Below, piece by piece: positions 10,025 to 63,731 of a stretch of DNA of 64,000 bases. A program made the translations under genes and the position numbers. The stretch covers positions 25,882,401 to 25,946,400 of the forward strand of contig CM049317.1 of NCBI GenBank assembly GCA_026874595.1, in the 5' to 3' direction. The notes under the pieces were generated by a model. The model was given only the letters and a program-made list of their open reading frames with translations. It searched no databases and was not told the origin of the DNA. Source of the DNA: Sipunculus nudus (Eukaryota; Annelida; Sipuncula; Golfingiida; Sipunculidae). Each line of letters opens with the position of its first letter. Position 1 is the stretch's first letter.

Positions 10025-10666
10025 CTAATCTATTAATTTATTTAGCTTTGTCTGGCCACCACCTTGTGGTTTCCTGTGTGGCACAGAATATACAACATCA
10101 GCAACTGTTTGTCCTTCCTGCATATCTAACGAGAACGGTTGGTTTTCACGTGACTTGCGCTTATTCGCGCTCAGTTCCTGACCTTTACCTGCAATCTCTG
10201 TTTCCATGGAATCATAAACAATGTTGTCTACCATATCGGTATTCACGTTTATTTCTTCATTTTCCTTCTCTGTTTTTCCGCCATCTTTCCGTTTCTTTTG
10301 AGGTACAGAGTACACACAGTTACCTCCAGCTTGGCCCTTTTCCTCCTTTATGCCATCACATAATTTGCCCTTCTTCTTCTCACACAGATTTTGACCATGA
10401 CCTTTAGGCCTTTTATCAACTGATTCGTAGACAATGTTCGCTATCATGGCCTTAGACAGGCTTTGTTTGGTAGCACGATTATTTTTTTCTCCATCGACCA
10501 GTTCATAGCTACTGTCAGTATCCGGACGTGACGTGTAGTTTTCAGTCCCCTCGGATGTGTAGATGATTACATCACTGGCTTCTGCGTACTCAAAGTTTTG
10601 GTCATCCCCATTAACTGTATGTAGAGTTTGCGTATTACTGTGAATGATGAACCGGTTCGTTTCATT
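10025..10666 (-). CDS. gene A cytoplasmic tail exon, tyrosine-motif rich
   Basis: The acceptor ACTTTCAG precedes AATGAAACG at 10666 (phase 0), and the frame runs about 213 residues to TAG at 10027-10025. It is charged, low in hydrophobics and has repeated tyrosine motifs: F-E-Y-A-E, S-S-Y-E-L-V, N-I-V-Y-E-S-V, C-V-Y-S-V-P, N-I-V-Y-D-S-M, V-V-Y-S-V-P. Two fit the ITIM pattern (I/S-x-Y-x-x-V), and the Y-S-V-P pair resembles Y-x-x-P SH2 docking sites. Genes B and C share N-I-V-Y-E at the same place, which supports the tail assignment. Function is inferred from motifs only. Confidence 0.75.
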   Translation of the reverse strand, partial: NETNRFIIHSNTQTLHTVNGDDQNFEYAEASDVIIYTSEGTENYTSRPDTDSSYELVDGEKNNRATKQSLSKAMIANIVYESVDKRPKGHGQNLCEKKKGKLCDGIKEEKGQAGGNCVYSVPQKKRKDGGKTEKENEEINVNTDMVDNIVYDSMETEIAGKGQELSANKRKSRENQPFSLDMQEGQTVADVVYSVPHRKPQGGGQTKLNKLID

Positions 10667-11695
10667 CTGAAAGTAAATATACGTTTTTTTTATATTCATA
10701 TACTGACAAATAAAAAGGGAGATAAATTATCCTTGAATTATAACCGTCCTTGTGCCAGCAATAGATCGAAACAGATATTTAAGATAAATATTGCACGAGT
10801 AGATTGTTAATTTCTTGAATTCTTAAGGAAATATAACTTCAACATACCAACATATAAAAACAACTAATTTACAACAGGAGTTGCCTACTCAGACATGATT
10901 CCAAGAAACTCAGACATGATTTCAAGAATATGACAGTGGTACTCGAAAGCATATCTCCGAAATGAGGTTTGTAGAACGGAGTCCAAACTTAGGACTTCCC
11001 TGTTAGTCTATTCCTCGGTGCAATAAGGGGCAAACAGCTCAGTGATTCTTATGTTCAACTATTGTGGTCGGGTATAAAGGACGTGGCACGATCTGTGATC
11101 TAGTCCTGTCGACGGATGATATTCAAGCAGCGCGCTGTGGCATAGTAGCTGCACGAACAAATGCTCTAGCTCTTTATCAGAGGAACAACATCTATATAAA
11201 CTGGAAATGCTCGCACACTTTGTTTTATTTGAATTATTTGCGAAAGATACTTTTAGATAGAACACACGCTGGTAACTTATTGGGTCGAGATTTGGACAGA
11301 TATGGTCACTCGTCAAAATTTGTGGTGATAATTGATAAATCACTGGTAAATAATAACCTCACTTTTTAAAAGTGAATGTACGATCTGTGTAATTTGTAAC
11401 GTACGCTATTAATTTTCAAATACTGTGTCATGGTTATAACTCATGTAAAATCGCCCATGTTTACCGTATCTTACCTAAGGTTCAGAGGTCTGGAATAAGG
11501 ACAATTTCTTACAGGTAGGCTGCGACATGATGTTGGAATGAAAATGTTTAGTACAATCGCTGTAATATTGATTGATTGAACAGTTTTCTTCTATTTGATG
11601 CGCAATCGAATTTTTATTTACAACAATACACATTTAAGATGTTTGGAGAGTGCTTCCGGAATAACGCCATGGGCAGGATTCCCGTGTTGTACAAA

Positions 11696-11811
11696 TTAGC
11701 TTCGGCCTTTCCAGCGGCGGCGACTCAGATCTACAACTCTCGTTAGCAACGTGCGACACGGTCTCATGCGAAGACGGTGTAGGTGGTTTAACCGATATAG
11801 CCTGATTACGC
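11696..11811 (-). CDS. possible basic juxtamembrane exon of gene A
   Basis: An acceptor (GTAATCAG) at 11811 would join the membrane exon in phase 2 and give a basic stretch (R-L-Y-R-L..R-L-R-M-R), comparable to the K-R-R-R-R and M-R-R-R-R starts of the tails of genes C and B. No strong phase-0 donor to the 10666 exon is visible, so the connection is unproven. Confidence 0.25.
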
Positions 11812-12035
11812 AGATAGAACAGGCAAAACCGAGAGGTAAAAAAAAGGTAAAAGTTGTTGCCTTATGCCATAATAAGACGAGTGACGCCGCTACAATCCGC
11901 CTGATTATATGAACATTGACGACAGGAAAATTTAACGGTTCCATGGTGTAATATGTGTGTGCTGAGTCGGACATGTATATCCAGCTTCACCAGTTTATAT
12001 AAACCGTGATAGTGAATCTGGTAATGAACCCTTAC

Positions 12036-12135
12036 CTGATTAAACATATCATGATAGACGCAAATACAAGAAGTATAGCTCCGCCTATTCCCAATCCAAC
12101 CTTGACTGAGAGGCCCATCGAGTGTTTCTGCTTGC
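12036..12135 (-). CDS. gene A transmembrane exon
   Basis: Acceptor CGCTTCAG before 12135, donor CAG/GTAAGG at 12036; phase 1 to 2, as in the membrane exons of B and C. It encodes a short stalk and a helix of about 22 residues, V-G-L-G-I-G-G-A-I-L-L-V-F then S-I-M-I-C-L-I, ending in a basic residue. The small-residue start and the basic flank fit a single-pass type I anchor. Confidence 0.85.
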
Positions 12136-12213
12136 CTGAAGCGATATACAGGAATAGGACACACGTGTGGCTTTCAGAACATGACTATGTACATACTATG
12201 TAACTGAAATAAA

Positions 12214-12219
<6 letters not shown>

Positions 12220-12257
<38 letters not shown>
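12220..12257. repeat. (TA)n microsatellite
   Basis: About 18 TA units just upstream (gene sense) of the gene A membrane exon. Confidence 0.9.
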
Positions 12258-12260
<3 letters not shown>

Positions 12261-15933: not shown

Positions 15934-16110
15934 ATTCACATATGTAATGCTTCACAAGTATCTTCTTTTCTATATCTATGTTACAGTATCGAGCTGTCCA
16001 TTTTCCTTCCCTGGTGAGAGCCAGACACTGGTCATTGATGGGGACTCTGGAATTCCTATCTTTCCAGTGACTGGTCTTGATGTCTTCGGATAAGGTATAT
16101 GTGCCATGAC
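15934..16110 (-). CDS. gene A CTLD exon, C-terminal half
   Basis: Acceptor AACGACAG, donor GAAT/GTAAGT, phase 1-1, 177 bases. It has the cysteine pattern of the C-type-lectin C-terminal half: D-Q-C-L-A-L-T-R-E-G-K-W..R-Y-C and the closing Y-I-C-E-C. Its fellows in B (46557-46709) and C (59837-59983) share D-H-W/S-H-W, R-x-P and the final I-C. The WND motif is absent, so canonical calcium-dependent sugar binding is unlikely. Confidence 0.85.
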
Positions 16111-16704: not shown

Positions 16705-16977
16705 CCTTGATCCATCTCCAAACGTTGTTGGTTGTTGAAATCCAGTACTTTTCACGCAGATTTATGTTGTATCTGAAGTGCTCTGCCAGTGCCTTGAAAA
16801 CTGTTTTAGGAGTAAGCACAGCCAATGACTGGTTTCTTGTTCCTTGTATGGTGTTATGACATGGGCGAGATGCTTCTTCCCAATCCTTGTGGCTGGTCAC
16901 AAGTTTTAAACACTTTATAGGATTTTTACTGTTGGTAGGTATCTCCCCAGTCTTGCAGATATGTGCTCGTTCCCACC
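16705..16977 (-). CDS. gene A CTLD exon, N-terminal half
   Basis: Acceptor TTCTGATAG, donor AAGG/GTGAGG, phase 1-1, 273 bases. It encodes K-C-L-K-L-V-T-S..D-W-E-E-A..P-C then Q-S-L-A-V-L-T and E-K-Y-W-I-S-T-T-N-N-V-W-R-W. The W-E-E-A and L-A signature with the W-I-S core fits a CTLD; W-x-W precedes the intron as in gene C. No EPN or QPD motif is present. Confidence 0.85.
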
Positions 16978-17256: not shown

Positions 17257-17403
17257 CTCCGCTACAAAAAGATGGTTTCTTCTTAGCACATGAATCAACC
17301 TCTATGGCTAATTTTCCTTTTTGGGTTCGGTAGATTGCCCCACATAGCGAATCCTTGGGCTGCCTGGTATTTGGAGGCTTCCAAATAGGCCATTCTATCA
17401 ACT
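17257..17403 (-). CDS. gene A exon resembling a CTLD C-terminal half
   Basis: Acceptor TTTTACAG, donor GGAG/GTGATG, phase 1-1. It contains D-S-L-C-G-A-I-Y-R-T-Q-K-G-K..D-S-C..P-S-F-C, spaced like the CTLD-C exon at 15934. Its neighbour on the 5' side is a WSC exon rather than a CTLD-N exon, an odd arrangement that B and C share. Confidence 0.7.
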
Positions 17404-18177: not shown

Positions 18178-18319
18178 TAGACTTTGTTTTTGCGGCATAC
18201 CAAGCTCGAGATTTCTCTTTTGTTCCACAAAAATATGTTTTGTTCAGACAACCATTCTTGCTGCATTCTGTAGAATAACTATTACCCACACTCCTTCCAC
18301 AACAGCACATGGGCAAGTC
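18178..18319 (-). CDS. gene A WSC-like domain, second exon
   Basis: Acceptor TTTTAAAG, donor CTA/GTGGGT, phase 0-1. It encodes L-P-M-C-C-C-G-R-S-V-G-N..E-C-S-K-N-G-C..Y-F-C-G-T..A-W-Y-A. The C-x-C-G, E-C...C and C-G...Y pattern matches the C-terminal half of WSC domains. Fellows in B and C keep W-C-C-E, two central cysteines and S-x-Y/F-A-I-N. Confidence 0.68.
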
Positions 18320-18514: not shown

Positions 18515-18678
18515 GGTTTTGCTGTTGATCACCTTATGCAATGAGTAGTAGCCATACACATCACATTTAGCCTCACATTCTCTTACACTTCTCACTGTTA
18601 CACAGGGTTCCTCCACATTGGTGTTATCGTTCTTCTCATAACAACCCTGGAAATACATCTTTTGAGCCGACCCATCAG
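18515..18678 (-). CDS. gene A WSC-like domain, first exon
   Basis: Acceptor ATTTTAG, donor ACC/GTGAGT, phase 1-0, 164 bases. It encodes Q-G-C-Y-E-K..V-R-E-C-E-A-K-C-D-V-Y-G-Y-Y-S-L. Start G-C-Y, paired cysteines and G-Y-x-x-L follow the WSC N-terminal half. Such domains are extracellular and cysteine-rich; their ligands are mostly unknown. Confidence 0.7.
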
Positions 18679-21507: not shown

Positions 21508-21717
21508 ACAGAATCCACGACCAGTACAGAGGAACAGTCCGTCCACCGATCCAGGCGTTGTCCAGGGAACTTTCGTTTTTCAGCAGGCTTTAAAGTATTT
21601 TATGTATTCTCGTATCTTTGTCGAGGGCCAATCTACCCCCATTCTTCTCGCAGAGCTCGCCTGCCTTTGTCCAGTTGACCCTTCCGTTATACACACAGAA
21701 TGTTCGATGTCCTTGGT
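21508..21717 (-). pseudogene. canonical CTLD N-half exon with an in-frame stop
   Basis: Acceptor TTGAATAG, donor CTGT/GTGAGC, phase 1-1, 210 bases. The frame gives F-C-V-Y-N..N-W-T-K-A..C-E-K-N-G-G-R-L-A-L-D and later N-A-W-I-G-G-R, a textbook CTLD N-half. A TAA at 21592-21590 interrupts it. It lies between the signal exon and WSC-1 and joins either in phase. It is a decayed exon or possibly a regulated poison exon. The gene B locus has an equivalent at 52492-52686 with a different stop. Confidence 0.78.
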
Positions 21718-21965
21718 CTATTCAATATTTGGAAATAGATAAAGACTTACCGATTGGTCAGGTGATTTAATCTAGTATTGCTGTTGCGTTCTATATTATT
21801 ATAGTACAAATAAATATAAATTTTTAGTAAAAATAATAATGATCATCTTCATTACCATTAATAGTATTAGTTGTAGTAGAGATGGTAATAATACAACTGC
21901 AAGAGTGGCCTATAATATTGATGCCCTATTTGTTAGAGATGTAAGACTCTTAATAAAATTCAGTT

Positions 21966-22251: not shown

Positions 22252-23398
22252 TACCGGAGTTCTTTTAATATTGGCATTAGAATGAAATCAGACATTCTGG
22301 CTTCTTATTTATTATTTATATTAGCATTTTGCTTTCAGTAAGTCTATACTAAGTTCCTGTTTAACTTCTTTCGTTTGAATTTCGTCCCTTTTTAAAAAGA
22401 GTTTTTTTTTGGTACACATGTCACACATAGAGTCATGAAAACGCACTAGATACGCATGTATCGGGGAAGGTAATACGCATATGCGGGTATTGTAAAGTAA
22501 ATAAGGACTAATGTGTTAAGTGGTAGTTTGATCTCCATATACGTCGAAGATGTTGTACTAGACATCAACCTGCCGGTTAAAAGTTCGAGACAAGCAGATA
22601 CAATCTGGCTTATTAACCCATATATAAGCTGTGTACTAGCCATGCATGACATCCGTAGGTCTGGAAATATGTTCTGTCACACCCAGCACATCAGCTGTAT
22701 ATATACATCGAAATCAATATATATACATCTTGACATATTTTTATATGTTTTAGGCATTATGTAACCAGATACCCTAGTTACATTATTTTCAGAGAATCAG
22801 AAAAGATGAACTAATAAACTCCAAATTACGTCTAACTATAACATCCAAGAGCAAACACATGCCTTGATTGTTCCGTTGACTGCATTTATACGTGTTCATC
22901 TTTCTAGCTCAATGGTTAATACAGTACACATTATATTCTATCAAATTTAACTTCGATGAATGACTCCACTTAAGCAGAGGAAACCGGTCTTTTTTACTAC
23001 CCCATGCTTGTACATATTTAATATGTAAATTTGTGTCTCTGAAACTACAATATATTCAAATATCACAAAATACACTGCTGATTATGTACTCGGATTACGT
23101 TATACATATTTGCTATAATAATGCTGTCTGGAAAGGAGCATGTCTATAATGTATATGTGTATAAAAACAGGCCCAATCCTGGAACAACCTGCGCCTCATG
23201 CTATGTGAATATATAATGCTTAAATGTATGCTGAAAATATGTACAACATGTCAAATAATTATTTTCCACAGCTGAAATACAGTATTGATATTTGTAAATG
23301 GTATTGTTAGGGATGGATTTACATTAGGTTTACCTTAGCATTCCAGCTGGTCACTTTATATTGCCGTCACTTTGACCAGAAACAGAGCATGTCCTTAC

Positions 23399-23501
23399 CA
23401 GTAATTGTGCCCACGCAGGTAGATTTAGATGTCATAATAATAAACGATATCGAGAGTGCCAAAAGGAAAACGGAGGTCAGAAGGATGCGCGCGATGGCCA
23501 T
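23399..23501 (-). CDS. gene A signal-peptide exon
   Basis: The ATG at 23501 opens M-A-I-A-R-I-L-L-T-S-V-F-L-L-A-L-S then I-S-F-I-I-M, a hydrophobic secretory leader. The donor ACTG/GTAAGG at 23399 leaves phase 1, matching the downstream exons. A paralogous exon lies at 26467-26566. A core promoter could not be identified. Confidence 0.75.
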
Positions 23502-26180: not shown

Positions 26181-26466
26181 CACCATTCGAACCGGAACGT
26201 AATCGCCCAGGTCATCCAGACTCAGACACAAGGTCAACTCAAAGACAGAACACTTACACCAAATGTCGGATTCAAAGAGATCGTTTTGATGGTTACCTTG
26301 TACAACCAAGACGTTCAACTATGAAAGATTATTTGACATTCAGAACTAACTGCTCGACCCAAGCCGTGCGTAGCATGGATAATTGCTAGTAATAACTGGA
26401 GGGGTTTGCTTAGATCTGAATTATTCCCATGGTGGCCAGGTAATAAAACCCAAAGAAAGTTCTTAC

Positions 26467-26566
26467 CATCCGTTGTATTCAGGCATTTTACCTCGGATGT
26501 TTTGGCAACCTGTATTGAGAATATCAACAGTAAAACGCAGATCAAAAGGAAACGTGCAGTGGCCAT
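26467..26566 (-). CDS. second signal-peptide exon (alternative or orphan first exon)
   Basis: The ATG at 26566 opens M-A-T-A-R-F-L-L-I-C-V-L-L-L-I-F-S then V-A-K-T-S. The donor GATG/GTAAGA leaves phase 1, like 23399-23501, and both begin M-A-x-A-R. No other exons lie between it and gene A, so it could serve as an alternative first exon for gene A or be the remnant of a lost paralogue. Confidence 0.65.
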
Positions 26567-32959: not shown

Positions 32960-33560
32960 GAAATAATCACGAGGCACGCTGTATAAGTTGTCATTTGCCA
33001 CATAAGACGTATGAGACCTAACCAAATATACCTTATGAGGTACGCTGTATAAGGTGTCATTTGCCAAATAATGCTCCGTGGACCTAAATAAGTACGCCTT
33101 ATCATGAGGTACGCTGTATAAGGTGTGTTATATGTCACAAAAATGCGCACTAGACCTAACCAAGCACGCCTTATCATGAGGAACGCAGTATAAGGTGTCA
33201 TTTGCCACATATGGTGCAGCATACCTATCCAAGAACACCTTATCATGAGGTACGCTGTATAATGTGTCATTTGACAGGTATGGTGCAGTATACTTATCCA
33301 AGTACATCTTATCATGGGGTACGCTGTACAATATGTCATTTGACACATAAAGCGCATTAAACCTAAGTACGACTTTTCATGAGGTACGCTGTATAAGGTG
33401 CCATTTACCACATATGCTGCAGCATACCTAACCAAGTACACTTTGTCATGAGGTATGCTGTATAAGGTGTGCTATATATCACAAAAATGCGCTTCAGACC
33501 TAACCAATACGCCTTATCATGAGGTAAGTTGTATAAAGTGTTTATGCCACAAGACGCATC
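32960..33560. repeat. 69-bp minisatellite, about 9 units
   Basis: The word GAGGTACGCTGTATAAGGTG recurs at about 33037, 33106, 33178, 33247, 33316, 33381, 33450 and 33521 (spacing 65-72, mostly 69), joined by ACCTAACCAAGTACGCCTTA. Because 69 is a multiple of three, long repetitive open frames appear on the minus strand. I treat them as incidental because the units vary in length and no gene features flank them. Confidence 0.88.
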
Positions 33561-40066: not shown

Positions 40067-40309
40067 ATCAGCACGACCCATTAACATTAACATTAATATA
40101 TTCTATGATTTATGAGGTATGATGACATATATTGTGTCACATTAGTTAACTTCCGCTTTAATACTCATAGCATATCCTACTCAGCGGCTGGCTTCATCAA
40201 GCTATTCCCTGGTTAAATGGTTCCTTTTACAATATTATCAAACCAAAATATCGCAAGCTATGTCAGCCTCCTCAAAGCCGAAAATAAATCCCTGCATTAT
40301 GGGCACATT

Positions 40310-40560
40310 GCACATTCATAAACAGTGTTCTTTGATCACGTGACCGACTGGGTCGACATCTTACGGTGGCTTGTGATATTCTGCTGTAGCGTTCTCTTGA
40401 TATCCAGAAGCCGATGAATAAGGGGTGTGTTTAGATATCTGAAAAGCATCTCGTGTGCTAATATCTTCGAACTCTGCATAATCTGAGTCCATAATTTGAT
40501 CCTGTACTTCAAACAATTACTTTTTTTGGTGTTATTATCATACTTTAATTCTGCGTCGTC
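40310..40560 (-). pseudogene. decayed receptor tail exon
   Basis: An acceptor GGGGTAG at 40560 precedes R-R-R-I-K, then several stops, then in the same frame D-Q-I-M-D-S-D-Y-A-E-F-E-D-I, followed by A-E-Y-H-K-P-P and, after another stop and a one-base loss, N-T-V-Y-E. This follows the gene B tail (M-E-P-D-Y-A-E-L-E-D, A-K-Y-H-P-P, N-I-V-Y-E). It lies just downstream of gene B and is a dead duplicate of its tail exon. Confidence 0.78.
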
Positions 40561-42080: not shown

Positions 42081-42378
42081 TCAACCTGAAACATGAAACG
42101 CCGCCCTGGCAATTTGGTCTCCTGATTCATAGACTATGTTTTCTTTAATGATGAAACCTGTGTCGACTTCTGGCGGCGGCGGGTGATACTTAGCTGAAGC
42201 ATCCTCTGAATTTCCAGAAGACCCAGCCTGAAGGAAGTGTTCTGGGATCTGCAAAGCATCTCCTAAGTATAGGTCTTCAAGCTCTGCATAATCTGGTTCC
42301 ATGATTTGAACATTTCTTTCCTTCATTTCGTGGATCTTCTCTGTTTCGCTGATGGTTTCCTTTCTTCGTCGCCTCATT
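42081..42378 (-). CDS. gene B cytoplasmic tail exon
   Basis: Acceptor GTGTCTTAG, phase 2, stop TGA at 42083-42081. It starts M-R-R-R-R-K (stop-transfer basics), then M-E-P-D-Y-A-E-L-E-D-L-Y-L, A-K-Y-H-P-P-P-P, and E-N-I-V-Y-E-S-G. The Y-A-E-L and I-V-Y-E motifs at matching positions in gene C imply selection for phosphotyrosine docking sites in this family. Shorter than the gene C tail, with one fewer N-I-V-Y-E repeat. Confidence 0.82.
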
Positions 42379-42765: not shown

Positions 42766-42856
42766 ATGACAAAGCAGGCGGCAATAATGATAACCATAAC
42801 AACCAGGACCGTTCCCGCAACAGCCCCGCCAACCTTTCTCCAGTCCACTACTGGGA
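42766..42856 (-). CDS. gene B transmembrane exon
   Basis: Acceptor TCATATAG, donor TCAT/GTGAGT, phase 1-2, 91 bases. It encodes V-G-G-A-V-A-G-T-V-L-V-V-M-V-I-I-I-A-A-C, an unbroken hydrophobic helix joined to the basic start of the tail. Confidence 0.87.
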
Positions 42857-43499: not shown

Positions 43500-44699
43500 A
43501 AACTATATCAACGAGAATACGTGGATAAAAGACTAGTCTACTTCTTGACTTTACGAGAACTAGTCACTCGTTTTCAAAGAAGTACAAAATAAATGTCATT
43601 AGGACGCCAGTCGATTTAATTACAAGGATAAAGCATTAACAATTACTGGACCCTTGAAAAACACAGATAAGTGTAAGATTAATTTTTCGGGATGATTGAT
43701 TTTTCTAGATATCTTCCGAAGGTAAGGAGTAAAAGGTTTCACAGTCAAATGGAAGTTATTGTTGGCTCTTTAGGTGTATCTTTTATTATTATATTATTTT
43801 ATTTAGAGTTAGAGAGAATATTTCAAGGGTGTAGGTAGTGTATATTTTTATCCGTTATATAGACTAAGGCAGATAAGGAAACAAGGTTATTAGAGCATTC
43901 TGTATAACATGGTTCGTGCATTTTTAAGACATATGGACATTGGTTTCAAATCTGTCAGAAATGGAACTACAGAAACACTCGCCCAACGACCCCCGCAGTA
44001 TATCGACCACCTCGAAATAACGACCACATTGAATGGTCCCGGTTATTTCAACTGTTTATATCAAATATCTAAACCGTCGCTGTAACGGACATCTAGTTTC
44101 CCGTTTATTTGGGTCAAAAGGGTGACCTGAACCTCAATTATGCATGGTTAAAACTGCATCTATAGTCATCTGATCTGCTTCCAGTGTGAATATCAAATGT
44201 GCATATGTACACATGTTCAATATACATATTGTAGTATTTAAAATAATCAATTTGAACTTGGCGCTCCGGATGAGTTTTGTTAAGAATTTCCAACTTATTT
44301 CCTTTTGACTGTAAATCGTTTGGCATTGCCTGTCAGGAAATGGATCGTGTCGTTTTGCTTAATTCTTTTATTTTCATTTCTCTGGTTAGCTATATCTCAG
44401 TATTTGTTAAGAATAGGCCAGGGTCGCCAGTTAGTGTTATTGTGTCGCAATACAATAGGGATATTCAAAGTGCGCTGCAGGTTAATTTATTCAATTGTTA
44501 TGGCAAGCGCTTTGGTGGATAGCATGTTATTGTTCCTCGCCTAGTTGATATTCAGATTTGTCAAGAATATCGACGGGCTATATTAATAATAGCAGGTCGA
44601 GGGTTTGCATTAGACTTAGGAATATAAATGAGTCTCCAGGGTAGAGATGCATTTACAGAGAGTTAATACTCAATAAGGACACACACCAGAGGTTTGCCC
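43500..44699. other. gene B intron without recognised features
   Basis: No exon-like open frame with splice sites and family similarity. Confidence 0.45.
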
Positions 44700-46095
44700 G
44701 CCGGTGCCTAGAGATGGTGTCAGCTGGTGTCCGGAAGTGTTGTAAGCGGATGTGCAGAGGTACTGCCAGTTGGTGTCCAAATGTGTTGACAACCAATTTC
44801 TAAAACTGTTGTCAGCCGATGTCTAGAGGTTCTGTCATCTGGTGCCTAAAGGTGATGCCAGCCGATGTCCAGAGGTGCTGCTAGCCGGTGTGCTGATATG
44901 ATGCCAACAGTTGTCTAGATGCTCTGCCTTCTGGTGTCCGTAGGTCCCGCAGGCAGGTGTCCAGCTGTGCTGTCAGTCTGTGTCAAGAGCTGTTGTGAAC
45001 TAGTCACCAGAGCTGTTGTCAGCATGTATCAAGATGTTCAGCCAGCCAGTGTCCAGAGGTGCTGCTAGCCGGTTTCAAGAGGTTGCGCCAGCCGGTGTCC
45101 AGATGTGCTGTCAGCCGATGTCAAGAGGTGCTGCCAGCCGGAGTCAAGAGGTGCTGATAGCCAGTGTCCAGAGGTATTGTCAGTCGGTGTCCAGAGCTGC
45201 TTCAGCCTATGCCCAGAGGTGATGCTAGCCGGTGTCCAGATGTGCTGCAATCCGGGTTCCAGAGGGAGTACCTTCTATTGTCAAGAGGTGCTGTCAGCCG
45301 GTGTCACGAGGTGGTAATAGCTTGTGCCCAGAGGTGTTGCGAGCTGGGACCCAGGGGTTCTGCCATCCTGTGTCCAGAGGTGTTGTCAACCAGTTTCCAG
45401 AGCTGTTGTCAGCCGGTGTCCAGAGATGTTGGCAGCCGGTGTCTAGATGCTATCAGCTAGTCCGGAGGTGCTGCCGGCTGGTGTCAAGATTTACTGCCAG
45501 CTGTTGTCCAAATGAATTGTCAACCAGTTTCCAGCCGGTGTCTAGAGGAGGTGCAAGCCGATAGCCAGGTGTGCTGCCAGACGGTATCCAGAGGTGTTGT
45601 CAGCGGGTGCCTAGAGGTGCTGTCAAACTGTGCTAGAGATGCTGCCAGCCTCAGTCAAGAGCTGTTGTCAACAGGTGTCTAAAGGTGCTGTCAGCCTGTG
45701 TCCAGAGGTGTTGTCAACCGGTTTTCAGAGCTTATGTCAGCCGGTGTCCAGAGACGATGCGAGCCCGTGTCCCAAGGTGTTGTCAGGTTGAGAGGTGATG
45801 ACAACGTTTCCGGAGGTGCTGCCAGGCGGTGTCCAAAGGTGCTGCCATCTGGTGTCCAGATGTGTTGCCAGTCTGTGTCCAGGTGTGCTGCCCGGCCTAT
45901 GTCTAGTGGTGCTACTAGCCTGTGTGCAGAGGTTGCGTCAGATGTGCTGCCATCCGGTGTCAAGATGTGTTGTCAGCCGGTGTCCGGAGGCACTGCCAGC
46001 TGGTCTTTAGAGGTGCAGCAAGCCGGTATCTAGAAGTGGTGTCAGCCAGTGTCTAGTGGTGGTGTCAGCTGGGGTGCATATGTGCTGCCAGCCGG
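44700..46095. repeat. 23-bp minisatellite, about 60 units
   Basis: The unit is close to GTGTCCAGAGGTGCTGCCAG plus CCG, repeating every 23 bases with substitutions over about 1.4 kb. Since 23 is not a multiple of three and stops are rare in the unit, all forward frames stay open and give false proteins rich in S-R-G, C-C-Q-P and similar. Confidence 0.9.
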
Positions 46096-46556: not shown

Positions 46557-46709
46557 ATTGGCAAATAAACTCTCTCTTTTCCTCACAGGGGAGTCCTTTC
46601 CATCTATAAGTTTTGTTTATCATCATACATCTCTTAGCGCGGGGAATACGATGCTTTCTATTTAACCAATGATCTGCCCTGATATTGAGAGTCTTAGTGT
46701 CTTCTCCAA
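46557..46709 (-). CDS. gene B CTLD exon, C-terminal half
   Basis: Acceptor TATATTCCAG, donor CAAT/GTGAGT, phase 1-1. It encodes A-D-H-W-L-N-R-K-H-R-I-P-R-A-K-R-C..R-W-K-G-L-P-C..F-I-C-Q-C. The D-H-W..H-R-I-P-R block is nearly shared with gene C. No WND. Confidence 0.85.
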
Positions 46710-47609: not shown

Positions 47610-47807
47610 CTTGGCCTACCTGCCATTGCCAAGTATTAGTTGTTGCCGATACCCAGTAATACTCATTAACCTTAAGGATGTCTGTCTCATTCAGGTTATT
47701 GTTATTCAGAGACGCCAATGTTAACAACACTCAGCCTGTTGGGCATTTTAGATGCGACATGGCCCAAGTGGTTGAATCCTGATGCACGGTGAATGACTTT
47801 CCCTCCT
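47610..47807 (-). pseudogene. gene B CTLD exon, N-terminal half, with in-frame TGA
   Basis: Acceptor CCTGTAG, donor CAAG/GTGAGT, phase 1-1, 198 bases. It encodes T-T-W-A-M-S-H-L-K-C-P-T-G, then TGA (47733-47731), then L-A-S-L-N-N and E-Y-Y-W-V-S-A-T-T-N-T-W-Q-W. The gene C equivalent reads [21 protein letters not shown] with no stop, so the TGA is a lesion of this copy (or a sequence error). Confidence 0.82.
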
Positions 47808-49489: not shown

Positions 49490-49651
49490 CTCTGTTGTTT
49501 CTTGACTCACAAATGGCTCTAAGTCTCTTCGAGCAATCCATTGACTTGAACATTATGCAATTCATGCTTTTTCGTAGCGACAGAGGAATGCAAAGTGGGG
49601 AGCCAGGTCGGCCTGTTTCCATTTTGGCATCACGGCTCCATGCAAAAATGC
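49490..49651 (-). CDS. gene B exon resembling a CTLD C-terminal half
   Basis: Acceptor ATACTCAG, donor AGAG/GTAAAA, phase 1-1. It encodes G-I-F-A-W-S-R-D-A..P-L-C-I-P-L-S..F-K-S-M-D-C-S..L-R-A-I-C-E-S. The gene C equivalent keeps G-I-Y-S-W-D-R, P-I-C-L, F-K-S-I-E-C-S and I-C-E. Confidence 0.78.
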
Positions 49652-50104: not shown

Positions 50105-50255
50105 TGCCTCTAATGTTAATTGCAAATGTAGAATTTCCTTCCTCACTGCAGCTTAAATTTGTCTTTAAAAAACATATTTTGTCACAGGGTTTTCTTATTT
50201 CATGGTATCCATATTCACAACACCAGTCGGTCCCCTTTCCCTCTCTACCATTCAT
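50105..50255 (-). CDS. gene B WSC-like domain, second exon
   Basis: Acceptor ACATTTCAG, donor GGCA/GTGAGT, phase 0-1. It encodes N-G-R-E-G..D-W-C-C-E..C-D-K-I-C-F-L-K..A-I-N-I-R-G. Close to the gene C exon (W-C-C-E..A-I-N-I-R-G) and more distant from gene A. Confidence 0.75.
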
Positions 50256-51600: not shown

Positions 51601-52491
51601 TCTACTCCATATATCTGTTGTCAACCTATCCAGTATCAGGTGAATATACTCTTGTTACTACAATGTCACTATTTTTTTAATACTGTGCACTGTTTAGTTT
51701 CATTGCATTGGATTTAAATTGAAGTTACACTTTTAGCCGAATCAAGCGCTAGTATTTTCATAAATTATGATAAACTTACAGACGACTTCGAACAACGAGG
51801 TTTCCTCAAGAGCCGTTCGAGAGAAAAATGTTTTAGGTCAAATATCGGTATGATAAAGAAATATATGTACAAATACGGTTTATTTTCTTTTCTTTTTGTA
51901 ATTTGAATAACTGAAGCCTACCCCCCTTAGGTACGAGGATTGTATGTTTATTGATGTGTATATATTTATCCATGTATTCAATGTTGCAAATCATGACCAA
52001 AGCAAACTAACATCATATTATTAGTTTTTCAAATCATGGAATTAAACTCAATAAAACTCATTATTTGTTCCACCCATTTCGTAGTTCCTTAGCGGGTCAT
52101 CGGTGAACCTTTACCAAGGTTCTTGTTCAACCGCTAAGTTTTTAAAAATATTTGGCCGGCTCCGCATTAAACACTGCTCAAGAACCTTTAAATGCCATCC
52201 ACTCAAACCACTTTGAAAACCCTAAAGAGTATCTAGCAGGAACTCTTGTAGTTGCAGTTTGTTGAACCATCTCCTTCCGGCGAAATGTGATTATTTGACT
52301 GGTTTATATAATATAGGGAATTACATATGCGATAAATGAATTAACTTAAAAAGTACTAAAGGAACTAATGTTTCTTTTAGAAAATACCCTGAATAGAGAT
52401 TAAGCGTTATTACCATAGAGACATGAAACATATTCTTGTTAAATATAAATATAACGTGTTCCATTGTTGTTAAGAAAACAGAGAAGCATAC

Positions 52492-52686
52492 CCTGGACCG
52501 AGTTCCATCGTCGGGGGCTACTTCTTCCGCCTATCCAGGAGTTATTTAACTTCGCCTCGTTTACAAGAATTGTAAGCACCCTGTGGACATCATCATTGTC
52601 ATCAAACGCAAGGTGACCGGAGTTATTTTTGCAGGTAGCTTATGCCTCATCCCATGACACTTTGTATCTCATTAAACAAAACCTGT
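52492..52686 (-). pseudogene. orphan CTLD N-half exon with in-frame stop
   Basis: Acceptor CCTTTCAG, donor CAGG/GTATGC, phase 1-1, 195 bases. It encodes R-F-C-L-M..V-S-W-D-E-A, TAA (52642-52640), then A-T-C-K-N-N-S-G-H-L-A-F-D and N-S-W-I-G-G-R. Like the 21.5 kb exon of gene A, it is more canonical than the CTLD-N exons used in A-C, and it lies just upstream of a WSC-1 exon. No directly following C-half was found. Confidence 0.78.
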
Positions 52687-53360
52687 CTGAAAGGCAAAAT
52701 ATCCTTGCAAATCACCATTCTAATATACTTCTTTAGTTTTATAGTGCATTATTTGACCATTGTATTTTAAAGTCTTATATCAAACAGCAAAACAGGATAA
52801 ACTATATCAAATTTAGTTCTGCTGTATGGTCGGCAAAATGTTCATCATTAACATACAGGGAGTAAATAAAAAAGATATGTCATCCATTTCCTCATTTCAT
52901 GATGTATTTTAAAGTTACACATACAACCTAATAAAAAAATATTGATCACATGGTTTCCTCTGACTTCGCTGGTTATATTCTAAAAATAGTGTTAATCTAT
53001 GGAAAGGTCCAGAGCACCATTTACCACGGTGACATTAGACAGGTTTGGACTCTGGATAATTCGAGTAAAATCGTAATCAGATTATTGTTGCAACGCCTCG
53101 GACTGAAATCCACAATCACGTGACGTGACTTTGCCCAATGAAGCACGACAGATTGATGAAATCTACAAACAACCCTTTAGAAATGAAACTGATAAAATAC
53201 AACAACAATAAATTCGTGAATGTGTGCCATTGAGGTGCGAGACCCTTAATAAAATTAACTCTTTGAGACTGTCTTCCTATTTATTGGCCTTCGGACAGGC
53301 ATAACGTCCCTTGCCCTAAGAAGGCAATATCGAATAATTCGCTTAATAGCATGCACACTC

Positions 53361-53509: not shown

Positions 53510-56500
53510 TGTATAGTTACATAACGGTCCTTTCCGCTACCATAGGTGTGTGAGTATGTGTATGGGCATCGTGGTATGTCATACTTACCTGTGCCTACAT
53601 CCTTGCATACTTAATAGGCAGCTGCTATTTGTGAACCACCCAGCAATATTCTAATCGTCATGATGAAGGAGAGGCGATACATGTATGGCACATTCATGTT
53701 GGATTATACTTTATACAACGATGTTAAATGAAGTATCTCCTGGCTGAAAGCCTAGTTGAAAAGTGAAACATAAATGAGGATTTATATACTCATTATACAC
53801 AATTTATGTTTGCTTATGGCTCATTTTTGTACAGATTCCTATCAGATCATGTCATCAGGTCAGCTTTCATAATGGCGAGCATTCTAACGAGAAAAAAATA
53901 GTATAGCACGTTTTTTTTTGTACTCTGTGTAGCTTTATTCCGGTTACCATGCCTGTAGTCTTCTTGTATATTTCGATAATCCTATTCATTGAAAAGCGTA
54001 TTGCAAGGTATCAAGATGACTAAAATCACAAGTTTTTATACTTCCTAATGTAATATTGATTTGCCGCTCTACTTCATATAGTCAGTCATGACGTACATCA
54101 GAGGTGGTCATGGCGATGCACGGTTTCTAGCCAAAGCAACTTGGGCCACAGGATAGATCTCAGTGCAATGATTATTTGCCGATTTTGGTGTTAAGATCCA
54201 ATCAAACTGTTGATGATTCCTCTGCTCATATATATCGCAGATAAGATTTATTGCCATCTATTTTGGGTTCATGCCGACACGTAAATCTCTAACTGCGTGC
54301 ATTTCGAAAGTTATACTGTCGATTCAACCACACACATTTGGAGAAGGTATTGTTGTTCTGGTGAGAGTTGGAAGGGCGCTTCTTAATAGAACACACAACA
54401 TGTCCACATCCTTGTCCCACATTATGTACATTTGACATGAAAATACCAAATTGAGATCCATTTATAACTAATTTCGATATCATTAGTGTTGTGTACATGA
54501 ACACAATCGTCAAATAGTTATAAGGCCTATGGTTATTCTTATCGTGCGGAACCACGCAATTTGCCGTGACATCACGCTTTATAGAAAGCCATATATGTTG
54601 TCTAAAGGCCAAAATAAATTCTATACACTGCAAATGAAGTTTGGTTCCATGGCTAAGATTTTATTGGAAAATAAAAAACCATTGTTAAATAGAAAAGCAA
54701 TACAGGTTTTTCATCGTAATAGATGATTTCATAATTTAAGGTGACGAGGATGAATAAAGACATGAGGGCTTCAGTATACTGACACATATGCAAAACACAA
54801 CTCGGAATGGGATGCGTATTATGTGAAATAGACTAATTTTGTACATTTCTATACTATTCCTACTGGAACAACCCCAATCTATAACAAAAAATCATTTTGC
54901 TAAATCCTTAAATTCATATACTTATATATGAGTCTTCTTATGTCCGAGACCGGATTTAATGGGCTAGAATAATAGATATTTAATATGACTGTAATTAGTT
55001 TCAGTTTGTGAATATGTTTGTCATCCTAATGTAATGTTTCAAATGTAAGAGTAACATATTTTCAGAGAAACACAATATAAAAGAGGCCTTCAAAATATTG
55101 AATGCATCCATGTGCTAACATCATGGTGAGACATATCCCAGAGCAGCATATTCTGTATGTATTCCCGTCATTTTCAGTCAACCATACCACTATATCATGG
55201 TATTAATAATTGGTGTGGGACATATGTGGCACTGTTCACACTCTTAACACTAACAGTGTCAATGTCTGCAACCGTTCATTGTATTTTCCGTAGATTCTAA
55301 GCGACAATAATCTATAGTGCATGGACTGACTGACTGTGGTGACCTCCTTTAACACTCTTCTACTTTAAACGGACCCTATTTTAAGAACTCCTACATTTTG
55401 TTCTTATAGTTTGAGGATGTACATCTTAAATATGTAAATGTAGTCATAACTAAGAACAACTCGTTCTCTCGAAACCGCCAAACCGCTGTTGACAACTTGA
55501 TGTAAATCTGCTGTCTCTGGAGATTTCAACTTAAAGAACCTGTTACAACCTATAGAACTCGTGTATAAACGCATCAAATGAGAGAGATTCTAAATCCGAA
55601 AGAGTTTACTATTATCTGTGATGGATCCTGAAGTATATTTGTAGGACATTTGTCATCCCTACTTCCAGTCATTGCCTGACCTCATCTACAACCGGATCTG
55701 TGTAGCGGATCATACCTTGAGGATGCTCGTACATTGATAGATTTTTCATCCAGCTAATTTAGTTTCTTTCTAATTTAATTTTATATGTTATGTGTCGAGA
55801 TTTACTTCCTTTTGTGTTCCACACCATGTATATTGCTTACATTAATTTGTTGACTGGTCCATGGTAAATCCCTTTTCGGCGGCAGTGAGGAATACGAATC
55901 AGATTTTTTTCTTAGTTATATTTAAGATACTCTGCAGATAATCTAAATAGTAGTGTGTTAATATGTCCGGTCCGTCTGATATTATAGTTCAATTTCTTTA
56001 TGTCTATGTTCTATCATTTTACAAGTAACAGAGTACTAGTCGCGAGACGCGAACCCTGCTCAAACAAGCTCAGTGCACATGCTCGTAAAAAAGGTCCACA
56101 GTGCAGAAATCCAGAAACTGCTACCGTTGGTGATCTTATGCTGCCTTCACCTGTCTGACAAACATGATTCATCCTGCTTATATTTCTGAATTTCTGGTAA
56201 ACCCTGCTGAAACGTACGGGATATTTATATAAGTGCAACGATCACAAGTTTTGATAATAGGGAAACCTCCCGTTGGTTACTGGCGCATACTGAATATTTG
56301 TATTGGCACAGGAATCATACTACGGGAATCGGCTGTGTCATGAATATTCATTAACTCCTACACCGCTTGCGCCGTGTACACGTTTAATACCTTTGACTCT
56401 ACCCTCTGAATGAATTACGCAGTGGTTCAACACGGCTGCTCTCGCCTCACATTAAGCTTTCACTTAACTAGAACAGGCACAACAAACGCTACCGTCAGTA

Positions 56501-57712: not shown

Positions 57713-58103
57713 TCATACAGCTGATTTCACGGAGCTATTAGTTGGCACAGTAGCTTCATACACAATGTTATCCACAATAAAATCGCATTCTATGTCAGTA
57801 TCTATCTGTAAATCTGACCCACGAGGCACCGCTCTTGTTACATTGTCTGCAGATTCATAGACAATGTTTTCTGTTATAACATGACAGCCTATGTCGCCAT
57901 CTGGCGACGTCTCCTGATATTCTAATGTTGCGTTTCCTTGAATGACGGTAGAATGTTTCATTTGTTCACATGTCTTCACACCATCTCCCTTGCCAATGTC
58001 TTCAAGTTCTGCATAATCTGGGTCCTTGCTTGTTTCCATTCTAACTTCTTTTCCCGGGATTTCATCTGATATTTTGATAGCTTCAATTCTTCTTCGCCTC
58101 TTC
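57713..58103 (-). CDS. gene C cytoplasmic tail exon
   Basis: Acceptor ATTGTGTAG, phase 2, stop TGA at 57715-57713. It begins K-R-R-R-R-I-E, then K-D-P-D-Y-A-E-L-E-D-I, T-L-E-Y-Q-E-T, E-N-I-V-Y-E-S-A-D and D-N-I-V-Y-E-A-T-V near the end. The two N-I-V-Y-E repeats and the Y-A-E-L site are candidate SH2 docking motifs. No kinase or other enzymatic domain is present. Confidence 0.85.
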
Positions 58104-59308: not shown

Positions 59309-59836
59309 TTTCAAACAATAGCATTATCATTAACACAAATGGTGTTAACGTAGAACGATAATTAGCATATGTCCATAATATTGAGTCCTTACAACAGTAT
59401 TTTTTAATCTGGTATTTTAGAAGCCCTTTAAGAATCGATTTAATATTGTTGGAACAAAAGGCCTTGCATATGAAGAAAGGTTCCCTAGCCCAGAGATGTC
59501 AGAAGACGAGGAAAAATTTAGTTAAGTTGTAATTAATAAAATTCACTCTCAACCCAATGGACACTTACAGTTTTATCGTTAAAGATTAATATAATCGGTT
59601 AAGATTTATATTATATTCGGCTGGTCTGTGACGAATTTCATGGTTTCTAGTATAGTAATATTTTTTAAGGTTCACTACAGTGTTATAAACACGTAGATAT
59701 AAACAACAGCCTCTGTTCGGTGATCTCCTTATTTTCTGGCATAATGTTTATAAAAGCTCCTTTCGATTACCTTTCGAGTATAAAGGTCAGATAGGTTGTT
59801 GGGCCCCTTTAATAACCATGTACCTCCAAGTCTTAC

Positions 59837-59983
59837 TTTGACAGATGTAATTACTTTCCCGCTCACAGTCCGGTGCTTTCCACTTTCCTTTATTGTTGAT
59901 CAACAAACACCTGTCAGTTCTGGGTATACGGTGTATGGAACTGTCCCAGTGGTCTGTGATAACTTTTCGTGTGTTGAAGCGAC
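59837..59983 (-). CDS. gene C CTLD exon, C-terminal half
   Basis: Acceptor AAAATATAG, donor CAAA/GTAAGA, phase 1-1. It encodes G-R-F-N-T-R-K..D-H-W-D-S-S-I-H-R-I-P-R-T-D-R-C-L..G-K-W-K-A-P-D-C..Y-I-C-Q. W-K-A stands where calcium-binding CTLDs have W-N-D. Confidence 0.85.
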
Positions 59984-60407: not shown

Positions 60408-60411
<4 letters not shown>

Positions 60412-60490
<79 letters not shown>

Positions 60491-60500
60491 CATATATATA
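60412..60500. repeat. (TA)n microsatellite
   Basis: Long TA tract with two CA breaks, between the palindrome and the gene C CTLD-N donor. Confidence 0.9.
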
Positions 60501-60534
60501 TTGTTTCGTTATACTGGTGTAAAAAATACCTGAC

Positions 60535-60729
60535 CTTGAATATTGTTCCACTGCCATGCATTAGTTGTTGCTGAAACCCATGTATTCTCATTTGATCGTA
60601 CCTTATCTGTTAAATTACCGTTAGCTTGATTCAGATATGTCAGCTGCATCACAGTGCTATTTTTTGGACATTTCAGGTGTGACATGGTCCAGTTAGTCAA
60701 AATATGCTTCACGATTAGCGTCCCATCAT
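60535..60729 (-). CDS. gene C CTLD exon, N-terminal half
   Basis: Acceptor TTTCCTCAG, donor CAAG/GTCAGG (a weak but phase-consistent site), phase 1-1, 195 bases. It encodes [16 protein letters not shown] and [13 protein letters not shown]. Intact counterpart of the stop-bearing gene B exon. Confidence 0.83.
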
Positions 60730-61027
60730 CTGAGGAAACATTGAAAGAGTATTATTATTGCGAAAGCTTAAGATGTATGTTATAATTAAGTAATTGCAAT
60801 CGTTGAACATAATAAACAAAATAGGAGAGACTCATGCATGTGTAGTGTTCCTGATGAAACGCCTCCGACAAATGCCTCCTTTTCTTCAAATGATGTTATT
60901 TAAATGACAAAAATGTAACTTAAAATATTATAGGTTAATGCTTTGTCCATCAAATTATAATTTTTACCAACACCAAGCACTGAGCACTTACATATATATC
61001 CGGTGTGATGAAGTTTACTTTAAATAC

Positions 61028-61201
61028 CTGTGTCATCCTTGGGTTCACAAATAGTTTTTAAAGTCGAGGAGCATTCGATCGACTTAAAAACAATTCTCTG
61101 GTTCCTGGGTCGCGGAACGTCCGTACGTGAAACAGCAAGACAAATCGGCACGCGAAAGCGGTCGTTTGCTGTTTCAGCACCACGGTCCCATGAATAAATA
61201 C
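61028..61201 (-). CDS. gene C exon resembling a CTLD C-terminal half
   Basis: Acceptor TATGTGTAG, donor ACAG/GTATTT, phase 1-1. It encodes G-I-Y-S-W-D-R-G-A..V-P-I-C-L-A-V-S..I-V-F-K-S-I-E-C-S..T-I-C-E-P. Follows the WSC-2 exon as in A and B. Confidence 0.8.
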
Positions 61202-61419
61202 CTACACATACACATCTAAATGAAATATCACATGAACGTCTCATTCATACAAACCAATATTATTGTTAACCCTATTCAAATATCAGTTCATTCGTTCACA
61301 ACTTGACTTTTCTTAATAAGAATCTGTCACACCTCTGCAGAGGTCCTTATGAGTTCCGTATTAGAATTTTTCAATACGGAGCCATACGCTCAACATTTCT
61401 AAAGCTTTTTTTTATTACT

Positions 61420-62040
61420 TTTACTTAGGTGTGACGCTTATCGAGCGTATAAGTAACGAATTAAGCGCATCCATTGTATATGAGATGCTTATGAGTTGCA
61501 TATGCAGTGCGCAACCTGAATTTTTGAGCTTCAAATGCAGTGCTCATGCCGAGCGTGTATCCGACGCACCCAACGTTTGCCCACCGCATGTCTGACGCAC
61601 ATCCGACGTATTCCGTGCGTATTCCCGCGGCATTTCTGCCGCACGCCGCGGCGATGTAGTCATCGTACTTACTCCAAATCTGGAGTGAAGCTTGGATGAT
61701 CTGCGAGTACGCTTTCTGTATGCTACCTGTGCATTTCTCATAAGTTACAAAAAAGTAACTTGTTCGGTACTTGTTCGTGCAATACGTCGGCATTCGCTAT
61801 GCCTTCGTTCGGCGTGCGTTGTATCTTCGCTGCAAGTACGCTATGTACACGTGCAAAATACGTACGTAGTTCATAGTCTGACGTGATGCGTGCCGAGAGG
61901 TCAGCATATTACCGCGCATGATCCTCTTATTCCGCACAGATACATGGCGTACTCGTGCCGCTCGACCGATGAGGGACCGATGCGCTACGTCTTTATAACT
62001 TATGACCTGCGTAACAGCGTGCATGCACAATTTTTTCCGG
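61420..62040. other. CpG-rich patch in a gene C intron
   Basis: Dense CG dinucleotides and recurring CGTACG, GCGTGC and CGACGT words over about 600 bases in otherwise AT-rich DNA. It includes GTTACAAAAAAGTAAC, a small palindrome (61743-61758). Frames across it look incidental. Possibly a non-autonomous repeat. Confidence 0.5.
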
Positions 62041-63577
62041 CGTAAGGTAAAATAAATGTTTAATTCACTTCTAGATCATCAACAGTATATGTGTGCTTAT
62101 CAAGAAGAACTTCCTCCTGTCAGCTTCCCCTTCTCTGATCGACTTAACTACACGAAGCTGTGTCGCTCTTCTACAAATGGAGGATGGATGCTTGTCGACA
62201 TTTAATCATTTCTTAACTAAATATACTATTTGCCTTGGAAATCTGTACATAACAATGTATATAATGAATATAATATTTGCTTTGTAAATCTGTACATTAC
62301 GTAATGTTAACGCATGCAAACATATACCTTGCGTTCTCCATAAGATGTAACTCGGCTTCCGGTAGTAGAGGTATTTCATTTTTATTCAATATTATTTTTC
62401 CATAACCAGGGCATCATGTCGTTCAACAGAAACTTTCCGCGATATTACCGATGAATATATGTGTGATCGGTTTTTAACATTTCCTTTTCAGGAAAATCAC
62501 CTGATGTTATCACGTTAATTCAGAAACTAGAGTGGTCTCCTGTGAAACTTTTTTAAAGCAAATTTGAAACTGTTATTATTATATAATCGACGACAAAACG
62601 CTGGATGTATTCAATATTGGGCTGCGGTACATGCCAACCAAAACATTAGTTTAGGGTCAGAATTCCAGTTGGAATCTTTTTTGAACAATTAGCTTTTTTA
62701 ATGTTAACAGTTTTTCAAATTACGTGCTTATATTCCCCTAAATTAAGCTTGGGTGGACAAATCCAGATCTGCTAAGAATATGCAGCAGACGTTAGAAATA
62801 GCCGGCAATAAGTACTAAAGACTGCTTGACCCTATAATAATGAAATTTATGCTAATTTAACACTGACAAGGATTACAAAAGAAATAATCAATGGATGTTA
62901 ACACACATTACTATTTAACAAAACACACTAAATTACTTTTTGTATTTTTCTCGTTTATAATTATGAAAAATGACACCTAGAAACGGTTTGAATAAATATG
63001 TAAATTAGGCTAACCGAATATGTTTTAAGAAATCTGTATATTTCTATAAGATCCGTTTCTAGTGGTTATAGATTGGTCATCTTCAAAATATCTAAATATT
63101 AATCGAAATATCTTAAAGGATTGATTTACCTCATAACCTATCAGTAAAACAAATAAATATACACAAGCTATTTCATTAACAATGTAAAATACGAAAGAAC
63201 AATCACTGGACCTTTGATATTCCTATCGTTGAATACTTTCAGTATTTTCCATTATCTAAAACTTATAAGTTTTACATATAGATTTAATCTATATTCAAAT
63301 AAGTTAATTCAAAATGTTTTTAATACAAAATGATACAAAATAATTTGTAATATCAACCAGTTTTTTTTTATTATGCAAATATGCAAATTATCCTGTTTGG
63401 TTATACAAGGTACGGAAAGGTCTTAGGACTCATTTGATCCTACGGAAGGAAGCAGAGGACCGTTGACTTTCCATAAAACAGTTTTACTTTGCTCCCGTCT
63501 AGAAAAAAAAAACGTTTAAATTTCAATTGATTAAACGATACTCCTAAACGCTCAAATTAAAACTAAAATGGACTTAC
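62041..63577. other. gene C intron without recognised features
   Basis: AT-rich, no exon-like frame with splice sites. Confidence 0.5.
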
Positions 63578-63731
63578 TTCCTCTTATGTTTATTGCATAT
63601 GAAGAATTTATTTCTTGGCATTGTTGATCAATTTTGAAGTAGCATATTTCATTGCAAATGTGGCTTATCTGGTTTGATCCGAAAATACTTTCGCAGCACC
63701 ACTTCTTCCCTGTTTGAAACCTGCCATTTAT
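63578..63731 (-). CDS. gene C WSC-like domain, second exon
   Basis: Acceptor TGTTTCAG, donor GGAA/GTAAGT, phase 0-1, 154 bases. It encodes I-N-G-R-F-Q-T-G-K-K-W-C-C-E..C-N-E-I-C-Y-F-K..Q-C-Q..S-S-Y-A-I-N-I-R-G. Matches gene B strongly and gene A at the cysteines. Confidence 0.78.

Follow-up and report, generated by a model that had tools for sequence, protein, structure and literature searches.

What do the repeated series of minus-strand exons encode that occupy most of the window examined here, a stretch of 64,000 nucleotides in an animal assembly of 1.43 Gb (Sipunculus nudus; G000:C12:25882401-25946400), and do they form single receptor genes? The exons were read by eye together with their splice sites and then modelled, 50 kb was fetched on each side, and the family was searched for across the whole genome; signal peptides and membrane helices were called by eye, without a predictor. 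The window holds three receptor-type loci (A, B and C), all on the minus strand and all with AG/GT junctions, in agreement with a preliminary description of this DNA that had seen at least three loci of common exon order, and the tandem family proposed there was recovered, through genome-wide matches, as a set of predicted single-pass receptors that is strongly expanded in this genome. This is a real, large and duplicating receptor-gene family, the architecture of which is novel as far as searched, and two of its three copies in the window are visibly damaged. On balance, and from sequence, we favour the reading that the window holds one section of an array of tandem genes, predicted to encode single-pass recognition receptors of type I, in which a WSC-like module would be nested within a C-type lectin-like domain (CTLD) and the tails would dock proteins with phosphotyrosine-binding (PTB) or Src homology 2 (SH2) domains.

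The predicted protein would consist, in order, of a signal peptide, the first half of one CTLD (CTLD1-N), the WSC-like module, the second half of that CTLD (CTLD1-C), a further CTLD (CTLD2), a membrane helix and a tyrosine-rich tail. Each half of CTLD1 has its own exon, and the WSC-like exons are placed between the two. The junctions at the end of CTLD1-N and at the start of CTLD1-C are phase 1, as are both outer junctions of the module, whose internal junction is phase 0 (A, C, E1 and G, the last two being relatives outside the window). Two CTLDs are thus present where one had been described, that one corresponding to CTLD2. The shared exon order stood, as did the membrane helix, which was recognized by eye as an exon encoding a hydrophobic helix; the phases that had been thought identical differ at the junction of CTLD2 and the membrane exon (phase 2 in A, phase 1 in B and C).

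Genome-wide, the matched ectodomain exons follow the order CTLD1-N, WSC-n, WSC-c, CTLD1-C, CTLD2-N, CTLD2-C. In the counts that establish this, a group was started at each CTLD1-N match (on C12, the contig of the window, also at a first WSC-like exon with no CTLD1-N ahead of it), so that the leading place of CTLD1-N is built in and the rest of the order is not. Within C12:25.3-26.9 Mb, to which the C12 count was confined (26 of the 93 matches of one search and all but three of the 85 of another, those three lying on C6, at C12:2.08 Mb and at C12:73.2 Mb), all 21 groups with at least two exon kinds were collinear, and all 20 groups of a count that left CTLD1-N out were in order; in 19 of the 21, CTLD1-N precedes the module and a CTLD1-C or CTLD2 exon follows it. 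On C13 (32.7-33.0 Mb; the C13 rows among 123 matches) the nine groups were likewise all collinear, eight of them with all six ectodomain exons and five with every matched stretch open. Three C12 groups were listed as open throughout, or two once locus F, which has a frame change, was removed; the stops marked in the group tables come partly from matches that overrun exon ends. These 30 collinear groups include gene C, A and B being counted separately through their own models. A single order on a single strand in 30 groups argues against an assignment of the WSC exons and the CTLD exons to different genes, which was rejected, and an arrangement in which the WSC exons follow a complete CTLD was also rejected, the second half of CTLD1 lying downstream of them wherever it was found. 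Exon models of the E1 ectodomain on C13 have AG/GT ends and an open frame, as do the ectodomain exons and tail of G on C12. More CTLD1-N or CTLD2 matches were found on C1, C2, C6, C7, C9, C15 and C17 and at other places on C12; outside the main clusters, the WSC-like module was looked for at a single place, locus D (C12:2.07-2.09 Mb).

When the two halves of CTLD1 were joined and compared with the Pfam profile Lectin_C (PF00059; cut-off 22.6 bits), all four copies scored passed: A (32.2 bits, 1.9e-7), E1 (27.6 bits, 5.2e-6), D (43.7 bits, 5.1e-11) and G (39.7 bits, 9.1e-10), with coverage from profile position 2 or 3 to position 99 or 106 of 107. The joined CTLD1 of C was left unscored because of its in-frame stop. 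Scores for CTLD2 were 28.2 bits in A and 33.9 bits in E1; CTLD2 of C and of G gave no match to this profile, and that of C aligns with that of A.

The identity of the inserted module required separate analysis. It had been described as WSC-like, and its exons are indeed open and constrained; actual membership of the WSC family is weakly supported by sequence comparison, and we retain the name WSC-like. The Pfam WSC family (PF01822) matched none of the modules of C, E1, E2 (part), F and G, and a search of the genome with that family listed 17 places, none of them within C12:25.3-26.9 Mb or the C13 clusters. Five WSC domains taken from this genome were made into a profile, against which the modules of C and F scored 10.3 and 11.7 bits, each higher than any of 1000 shuffles of the same sequence, and the scores of G and E1 were reached by one and three, respectively, of 1000 own shuffles; an hhalign comparison of module and WSC profile gave a P value of 0.0015 and a probability of 17%. 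The reverse test, in which a profile of the module was run on the five WSC domains, returned 11.5, 7.2, 2.2, 0.7 and 0.6 bits, the best of 2000 shuffles reaching 10.6. The cysteine spacing of the module (GCY ... C ... CxxxC ... CCCG ... C ... C ... C) resembles what we take to be the WSC pattern, GC[YF]..C..C..CxCG..C..C..CG.

Judged from codon comparisons, the WSC-like exons are under purifying selection. The ratios of non-synonymous to synonymous substitution (dN/dS), given only where dS was unsaturated, are about 0.16, 0.11 and 0.32 in the comparisons of C, F and G with one another, based on 68 codons from three stretches anchored on conserved residues of both WSC-like exons, a choice that leaves out the variable middle and therefore lowers dN. 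For C versus F the ratio is 0.40 in the second WSC-like exon and 0.22 in CTLD1-N, and for E1 versus E2 it is 0.48 in the first WSC-like exon and 0.42 in CTLD1-N; A versus B gave 0.23 for CTLD1-N, 0.26 for CTLD2-N, 0.47 for CTLD1-C and 0.62 for the tail.

The three loci of the window are in different states. Locus A occupies window positions 63731-57713, with its start beyond the window edge at 69220, and comprises signal peptide, CTLD1-N, a degenerate first WSC-like exon (short, at 64233-64142, just outside the window), the second WSC-like exon, CTLD1-C, CTLD2 on two exons, helix and tail; from its second WSC-like exon onward the exon model is open for 394 residues up to the stop, and the full-length locus is open in either form, with 526 residues when the WSC-like exons are included and 444 when they are left out. 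Locus B (53697-42081) has the same exon order, interrupted by in-frame stops in three exons (signal, CTLD1-N and CTLD2-N). Locus C, which has signal candidates at 26566 and 23501 and a tail that runs to 10025, is open over 531 residues from the first WSC-like exon to the tail stop and carries the only complete two-exon module in the window; it has a stop in CTLD1-N, and its tail ends ahead of a segment that is still read through in G. About 35 kb carrying A and B (window 39.2-64.0 kb and some 10 kb beyond) has a second copy, with loci A' and B', 4-47 kb left of the window; the aligned blocks are 72-99% identical, mostly 82-97%. The copies on the two sides have decayed differently: A' has a frameshift in CTLD1-N, and B' has matched ectodomain exons that are open and no matching intact tail. 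Between A and A' there are too few differences for a selection test.

The cytoplasmic tails share a recurrent motif. Across the tails of A, B, C and D, 11 of 23 tyrosines have an asparagine at -3, a count reached by none of 5000 shuffles (mean 1.42, maximum 9), although this test overstates independence because the tail repeats within and between tails are related. The commonest form is [DE]-N-I-[IV]-Y-E. The tails had been characterized by Y-A-E-L and N-I-V-Y-E motifs, and N-I-V-Y-E or N-I-V-Y-D motifs are present, with YAEL in A and B; the tail of C has Y-A-E-A instead. A Y-S-V-P motif is found in the tails of C and G, and YxxP motifs fit SH2 domains of the Crk/Nck type. The spacing of N-x-x-Y motifs is exactly 33 residues among four of them in D and between two in A, and 53, 39 and 32 residues in C; the 33-residue spacing suggests growth of the A and D tails by duplication of a 99-base unit. 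As a separate observation, the start of the D tail has eight matches of equal score at C12:1.707-1.794 Mb, about 12.3 kb apart, a pattern indicating that a related gene or exon was recently amplified in tandem.

Three alternatives were weighed against this array of nested receptors. The WSC-like exons might be a cassette that is used optionally or alternatively. Most of the product would then be a receptor with two CTLDs and an uninterrupted CTLD1, and forms with WSC would be minor isoforms or, at loci such as A and B, the exons would be dead. Skipping would keep the frame, because the flanking junctions are phase 1, and the joined halves do make a good CTLD by their Lectin_C matches; furthermore, the first WSC-like exon is degenerate in both A and A', and was not found in B, B' or D by a scan that also missed the one of E1, which began in a partly scanned stretch, so that this negative does not establish absence. 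We nevertheless consider such a cassette unlikely, since open and constrained WSC-like exons occur in C, F, G, E1 and E2 (for E2 this covers exon 1 and the beginning of exon 2 only), and since both exons were matched in 18 of the 20 C12 groups with at least two exons and in eight of the nine C13 groups, the ninth having the first exon only. An equally doubtful proposal is that the window contains mainly pseudogene copies, left behind by a family with its working genes elsewhere (on C13 and at other C12 loci): the stops in B, in C and in an extra tail remnant, the frameshift of A', the lost tail of B' and the change of frame in CTLD1-N of F all speak for it, but locus A is open across all exons used, G and H are free of stops in every matched exon (H being known from matches alone), and the in-frame exons of A and A' are 95-99% identical, more alike than most of the surrounding DNA.

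The remaining alternative concerns signalling, and would make the tails classical switches built on immunoreceptor tyrosine-based inhibitory or activation motifs (ITIM or ITAM), to which SHP or Syk kinases would be recruited, as happens in the natural killer (NK) and CTLD receptors of vertebrates. YAEL in A and B, YELV in C and the several clustered tail tyrosines are compatible with it. The strict ITIM pattern ([ILVS]xYxx[LIV]), however, occurs twice in the four tails of A, B, C and D, a number reached by 1192 of 5000 shuffles, and the conserved feature is the asparagine at -3 rather than a hydrophobic residue at +3; we regard this alternative as quite improbable, and the label 'ITIM/ITAM-type' that had been given to the tails is unsupported because the strict motif is at chance level.

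Several points weigh against the favoured reading itself. No locus in the window could be shown to be intact from end to end, B and C having stops and A its degenerate first WSC-like exon. The CTLD1-C exon was itself matched in only 5 of the 19 C12 groups in which the module is flanked on both sides, and that of G was missed by the search and found only by eye; the membrane exon of G was not located, and a tail or membrane exon was confirmed at none of the C13 loci. Skipping of the WSC-like exons also keeps all frames of A open, which leaves nesting in the protein a prediction, and the weak case for WSC membership belongs here as well. For the tails, in addition to the kinship of their repeats, an asparagine at -3 accompanies only 4 of the 12 tyrosines of G, a tail outside the shuffle test, and the proline of NPXY (at -2) is present in none of the N-x-x-Y motifs of A, B, C and D. 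PTB docking is proposed by analogy of motifs, and an immune role of the family by analogy only.

Comparison with known proteins bears on both novelty and function. Searches of a set of 5.8 billion proteins, which may hold few animal proteins, found no relatives of gene C, of an alignment of A, B and C or of the G ectodomain at E <= 0.01; a sequence search of the PDB with part of gene C gave no match, and an AlphaFold model of A (partial ectodomain and helix, from a single sequence) was not usable, with a mean predicted local distance difference test (pLDDT) value of 31.5. The statement that no standard family combines WSC, CTLD and such tails is partly incorrect: polycystin-1 joins WSC and C-type lectin domains in one membrane-protein ectodomain (PMC9672506), while the nested order together with N-x-x-Y tails was not found in print in a literature search of limited depth. 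In polycystin-1 (PKD1) these domains are separate and belong to an 11-pass protein with LRR, PKD and GAIN parts; the receptors described here, by contrast, are predicted to be single-pass, with the WSC-like module between the CTLD halves and a tyrosine-rich tail, and LRR, PKD, REJ/GAIN and PLAT were absent from the Pfam matches of the exons and models scanned. WSC has also been named as an extra domain in unusual bivalve CTL-domain proteins with unique architectures, and the portions of that text available to us mention neither a nested order nor tyrosine tails or ITIMs (PMC10140915). For the tails, the nearest model is CED-1 of Caenorhabditis elegans, in which NPXY is bound by the PTB domain of CED-6 and YXXL by the SH2 domain of NCK-1 after the action of SRC-1 (PMC9388098). 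In a similar way, the A and B tails pair N-x-x-Y with a YXXL-type motif (YAEL), and 'works like CED-1' is therefore a reasonable model. The ectodomain of CED-1, Draper and MEGF10 is of EGF/EMI type, not CTLD, and the NPXY of CED-1 differs from the N-I-V-Y found here, which is moreover repeated; membership of the CED-1 family is not claimed, because the ectodomain differs and the proline of NPXY is missing.

Vertebrate CTLD immunoreceptors (NK-cell and Dectin/CLEC types) are type II proteins, usually with one CTLD and no inserted domain, and their CTLDs lack classical sugar motifs, their genes are clustered and they have intracellular tyrosine motifs. The receptors described here share these last three features, and differ in having two CTLDs, an inserted module, a predicted type-I orientation and no enrichment of the ITIM pattern. 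EPN/QPD-type and WND motifs were found in none of eight CTLDs checked (A1, A2, C2, D1, E1-1, E1-2, G1 and G2), and classical calcium-dependent sugar binding by these eight is therefore unlikely; the probable ligand would be a protein or some unusual glycan.

The features of the three loci are collected in the table below.

Table. Exons and related features of loci A, B and C, in window coordinates.
Feature	Position	Strand	Basis
A: WSC-like exon 2 (enters in phase 0, leaves in phase 1)	63578..63731	-	exon model; 94.8% identity to A'
A: CTLD1 second half	61028..61201	-	exon model; joined halves Lectin_C 1.9e-7
A: CTLD2 first half	60535..60729	-	exon model, Pfam
A: CTLD2 second half	59824..59983	-	exon model; CTLD2 Lectin_C 3.3e-6
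A: stalk and membrane helix	58498..58608	-	by eye, exon model
A: cytoplasmic tail (YAEL, two NIVYE 33 residues apart, stop)	57713..58103	-	by eye, exon model
B: signal-peptide-like exon with in-frame stop	53600..53697	-	by eye
B: CTLD1 first half with in-frame stop	52490..52690	-	by eye, Pfam scan
B: WSC-like exon 2	50105..50255	-	by eye, exon model
B: CTLD1 second half	49490..49651	-	by eye, exon model
B: CTLD2 first half with in-frame stop	47610..47807	-	by eye, exon model
B: CTLD2 second half	46557..46709	-	exon model; Lectin_C 20.7 bits, slightly below cut-off
B: membrane helix exon	42766..42856	-	by eye, exon model
B: tail (YAEL and NIVYE)	42081..42378	-	by eye, exon model
Extra tail exon remnant, interrupted by stops	40241..40489	-	sequence reading
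Signal-peptide-like exon; may start C or a copy since lost	26450..26566	-	by eye
Second signal-peptide-like exon, candidate start of C	23370..23501	-	sequence reading
C: CTLD1 first half with in-frame stop	21515..21721	-	by eye, genome search
C: WSC-like exon 1	18533..18678	-	by eye, exon model, dN/dS
C: WSC-like exon 2	18178..18319	-	by eye, exon model, dN/dS
C: CTLD1 second half	17257..17403	-	by eye, exon model
C: CTLD2 first half	16705..16977	-	by eye, exon model
C: CTLD2 second half	15934..16110	-	by eye, exon model
C: membrane helix exon	12036..12135	-	by eye, exon model
C: tail (NIVYE, NIVYD, NCVYS, VVYSVP); acceptor picked by phase only	10025..10637	-	by eye, exon model
Segment like the tail continuation of G, in a different frame in C	9879..10007	-	weak match, then by eye

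Other elements in the window include a long array of a 23-base repeat (44686-46095, about 36 copies in its first block) in the locus B intron that separates CTLD2 from the membrane exon, and a 156-base tandem repeat of about 10 copies at 37667-39324. A 69-base tandem repeat (8.4 copies, 32966-33541, minus strand) reads as repeated ...NDTLYSVPHDK..., which is similar to the YSVP of the locus C tail, and is possibly a decayed or expanded tail exon. Fragments at 985-1971 (minus strand), 3057-5518 (plus strand) and 8444-8794 (minus strand) look, by eye, like a Ty3/gypsy-type integrase and the gag/protease of a retrotransposon. In the assembly at large, ten strong COX1 matches with long open frames lie on nine contigs (C60, C61, C62, C66, C72, C74, C75, C89 and C123), and C5 has a weak fragment. 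Read by eye, the COX1-type genes of C60 and C123 have a bacterial look, that of C123 resembling a cbb3-type oxidase; the assembly thus probably includes contigs of bacteria, which may be symbionts or cobionts.

If the array does encode nested receptors as proposed, the WSC-like module would be translated within CTLD1, near the start of the long-loop region, and may crown the first lectin fold as a variable head for ligand contact. Binding of ligand would then cluster the receptors and lead to phosphorylation of their tails by Src-type kinases, upon which the [DE]-N-[IV]-[IV]-Y-E motifs could dock PTB-domain (CED-6/Shc/Numb-type) or SH2 adaptors, and the Y-A-E-L and Y-S-V-P motifs SH2 proteins of the SHP/Nck/Crk type; the docked adaptors would pass on signals for uptake or activation in a recognition cell such as a hemocyte, and the repertoire would keep changing through duplication, loss and decay of copies. 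A more far-reaching version, which we put forward tentatively and hold to be possible rather than probable, is that a WSC-like domain was shuffled into a phase-1 intron splitting a CTLD, so that it came to be translated inside the lectin fold at the long loop as a new composite head, and that this design was amplified into dozens of tandem receptor genes with tails of repeated N-x-x-Y docking motifs, serving a polymorphic recognition of self and non-self, or of symbionts, that has no known counterpart.

Invertebrates lack antibody-type immunity, and how their recognition diversifies is an open question. The gene models given here yield precise, checkable predictions of splice products, of regions that contact ligand and of motifs for adaptors, and offer a concrete case of intron-phase exon shuffling that would put one extracellular domain within another. 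If the proposal is true, the combination of a composite head, high turnover of gene copies and tails with multiple motifs would provide a test case for the diversification of recognition.

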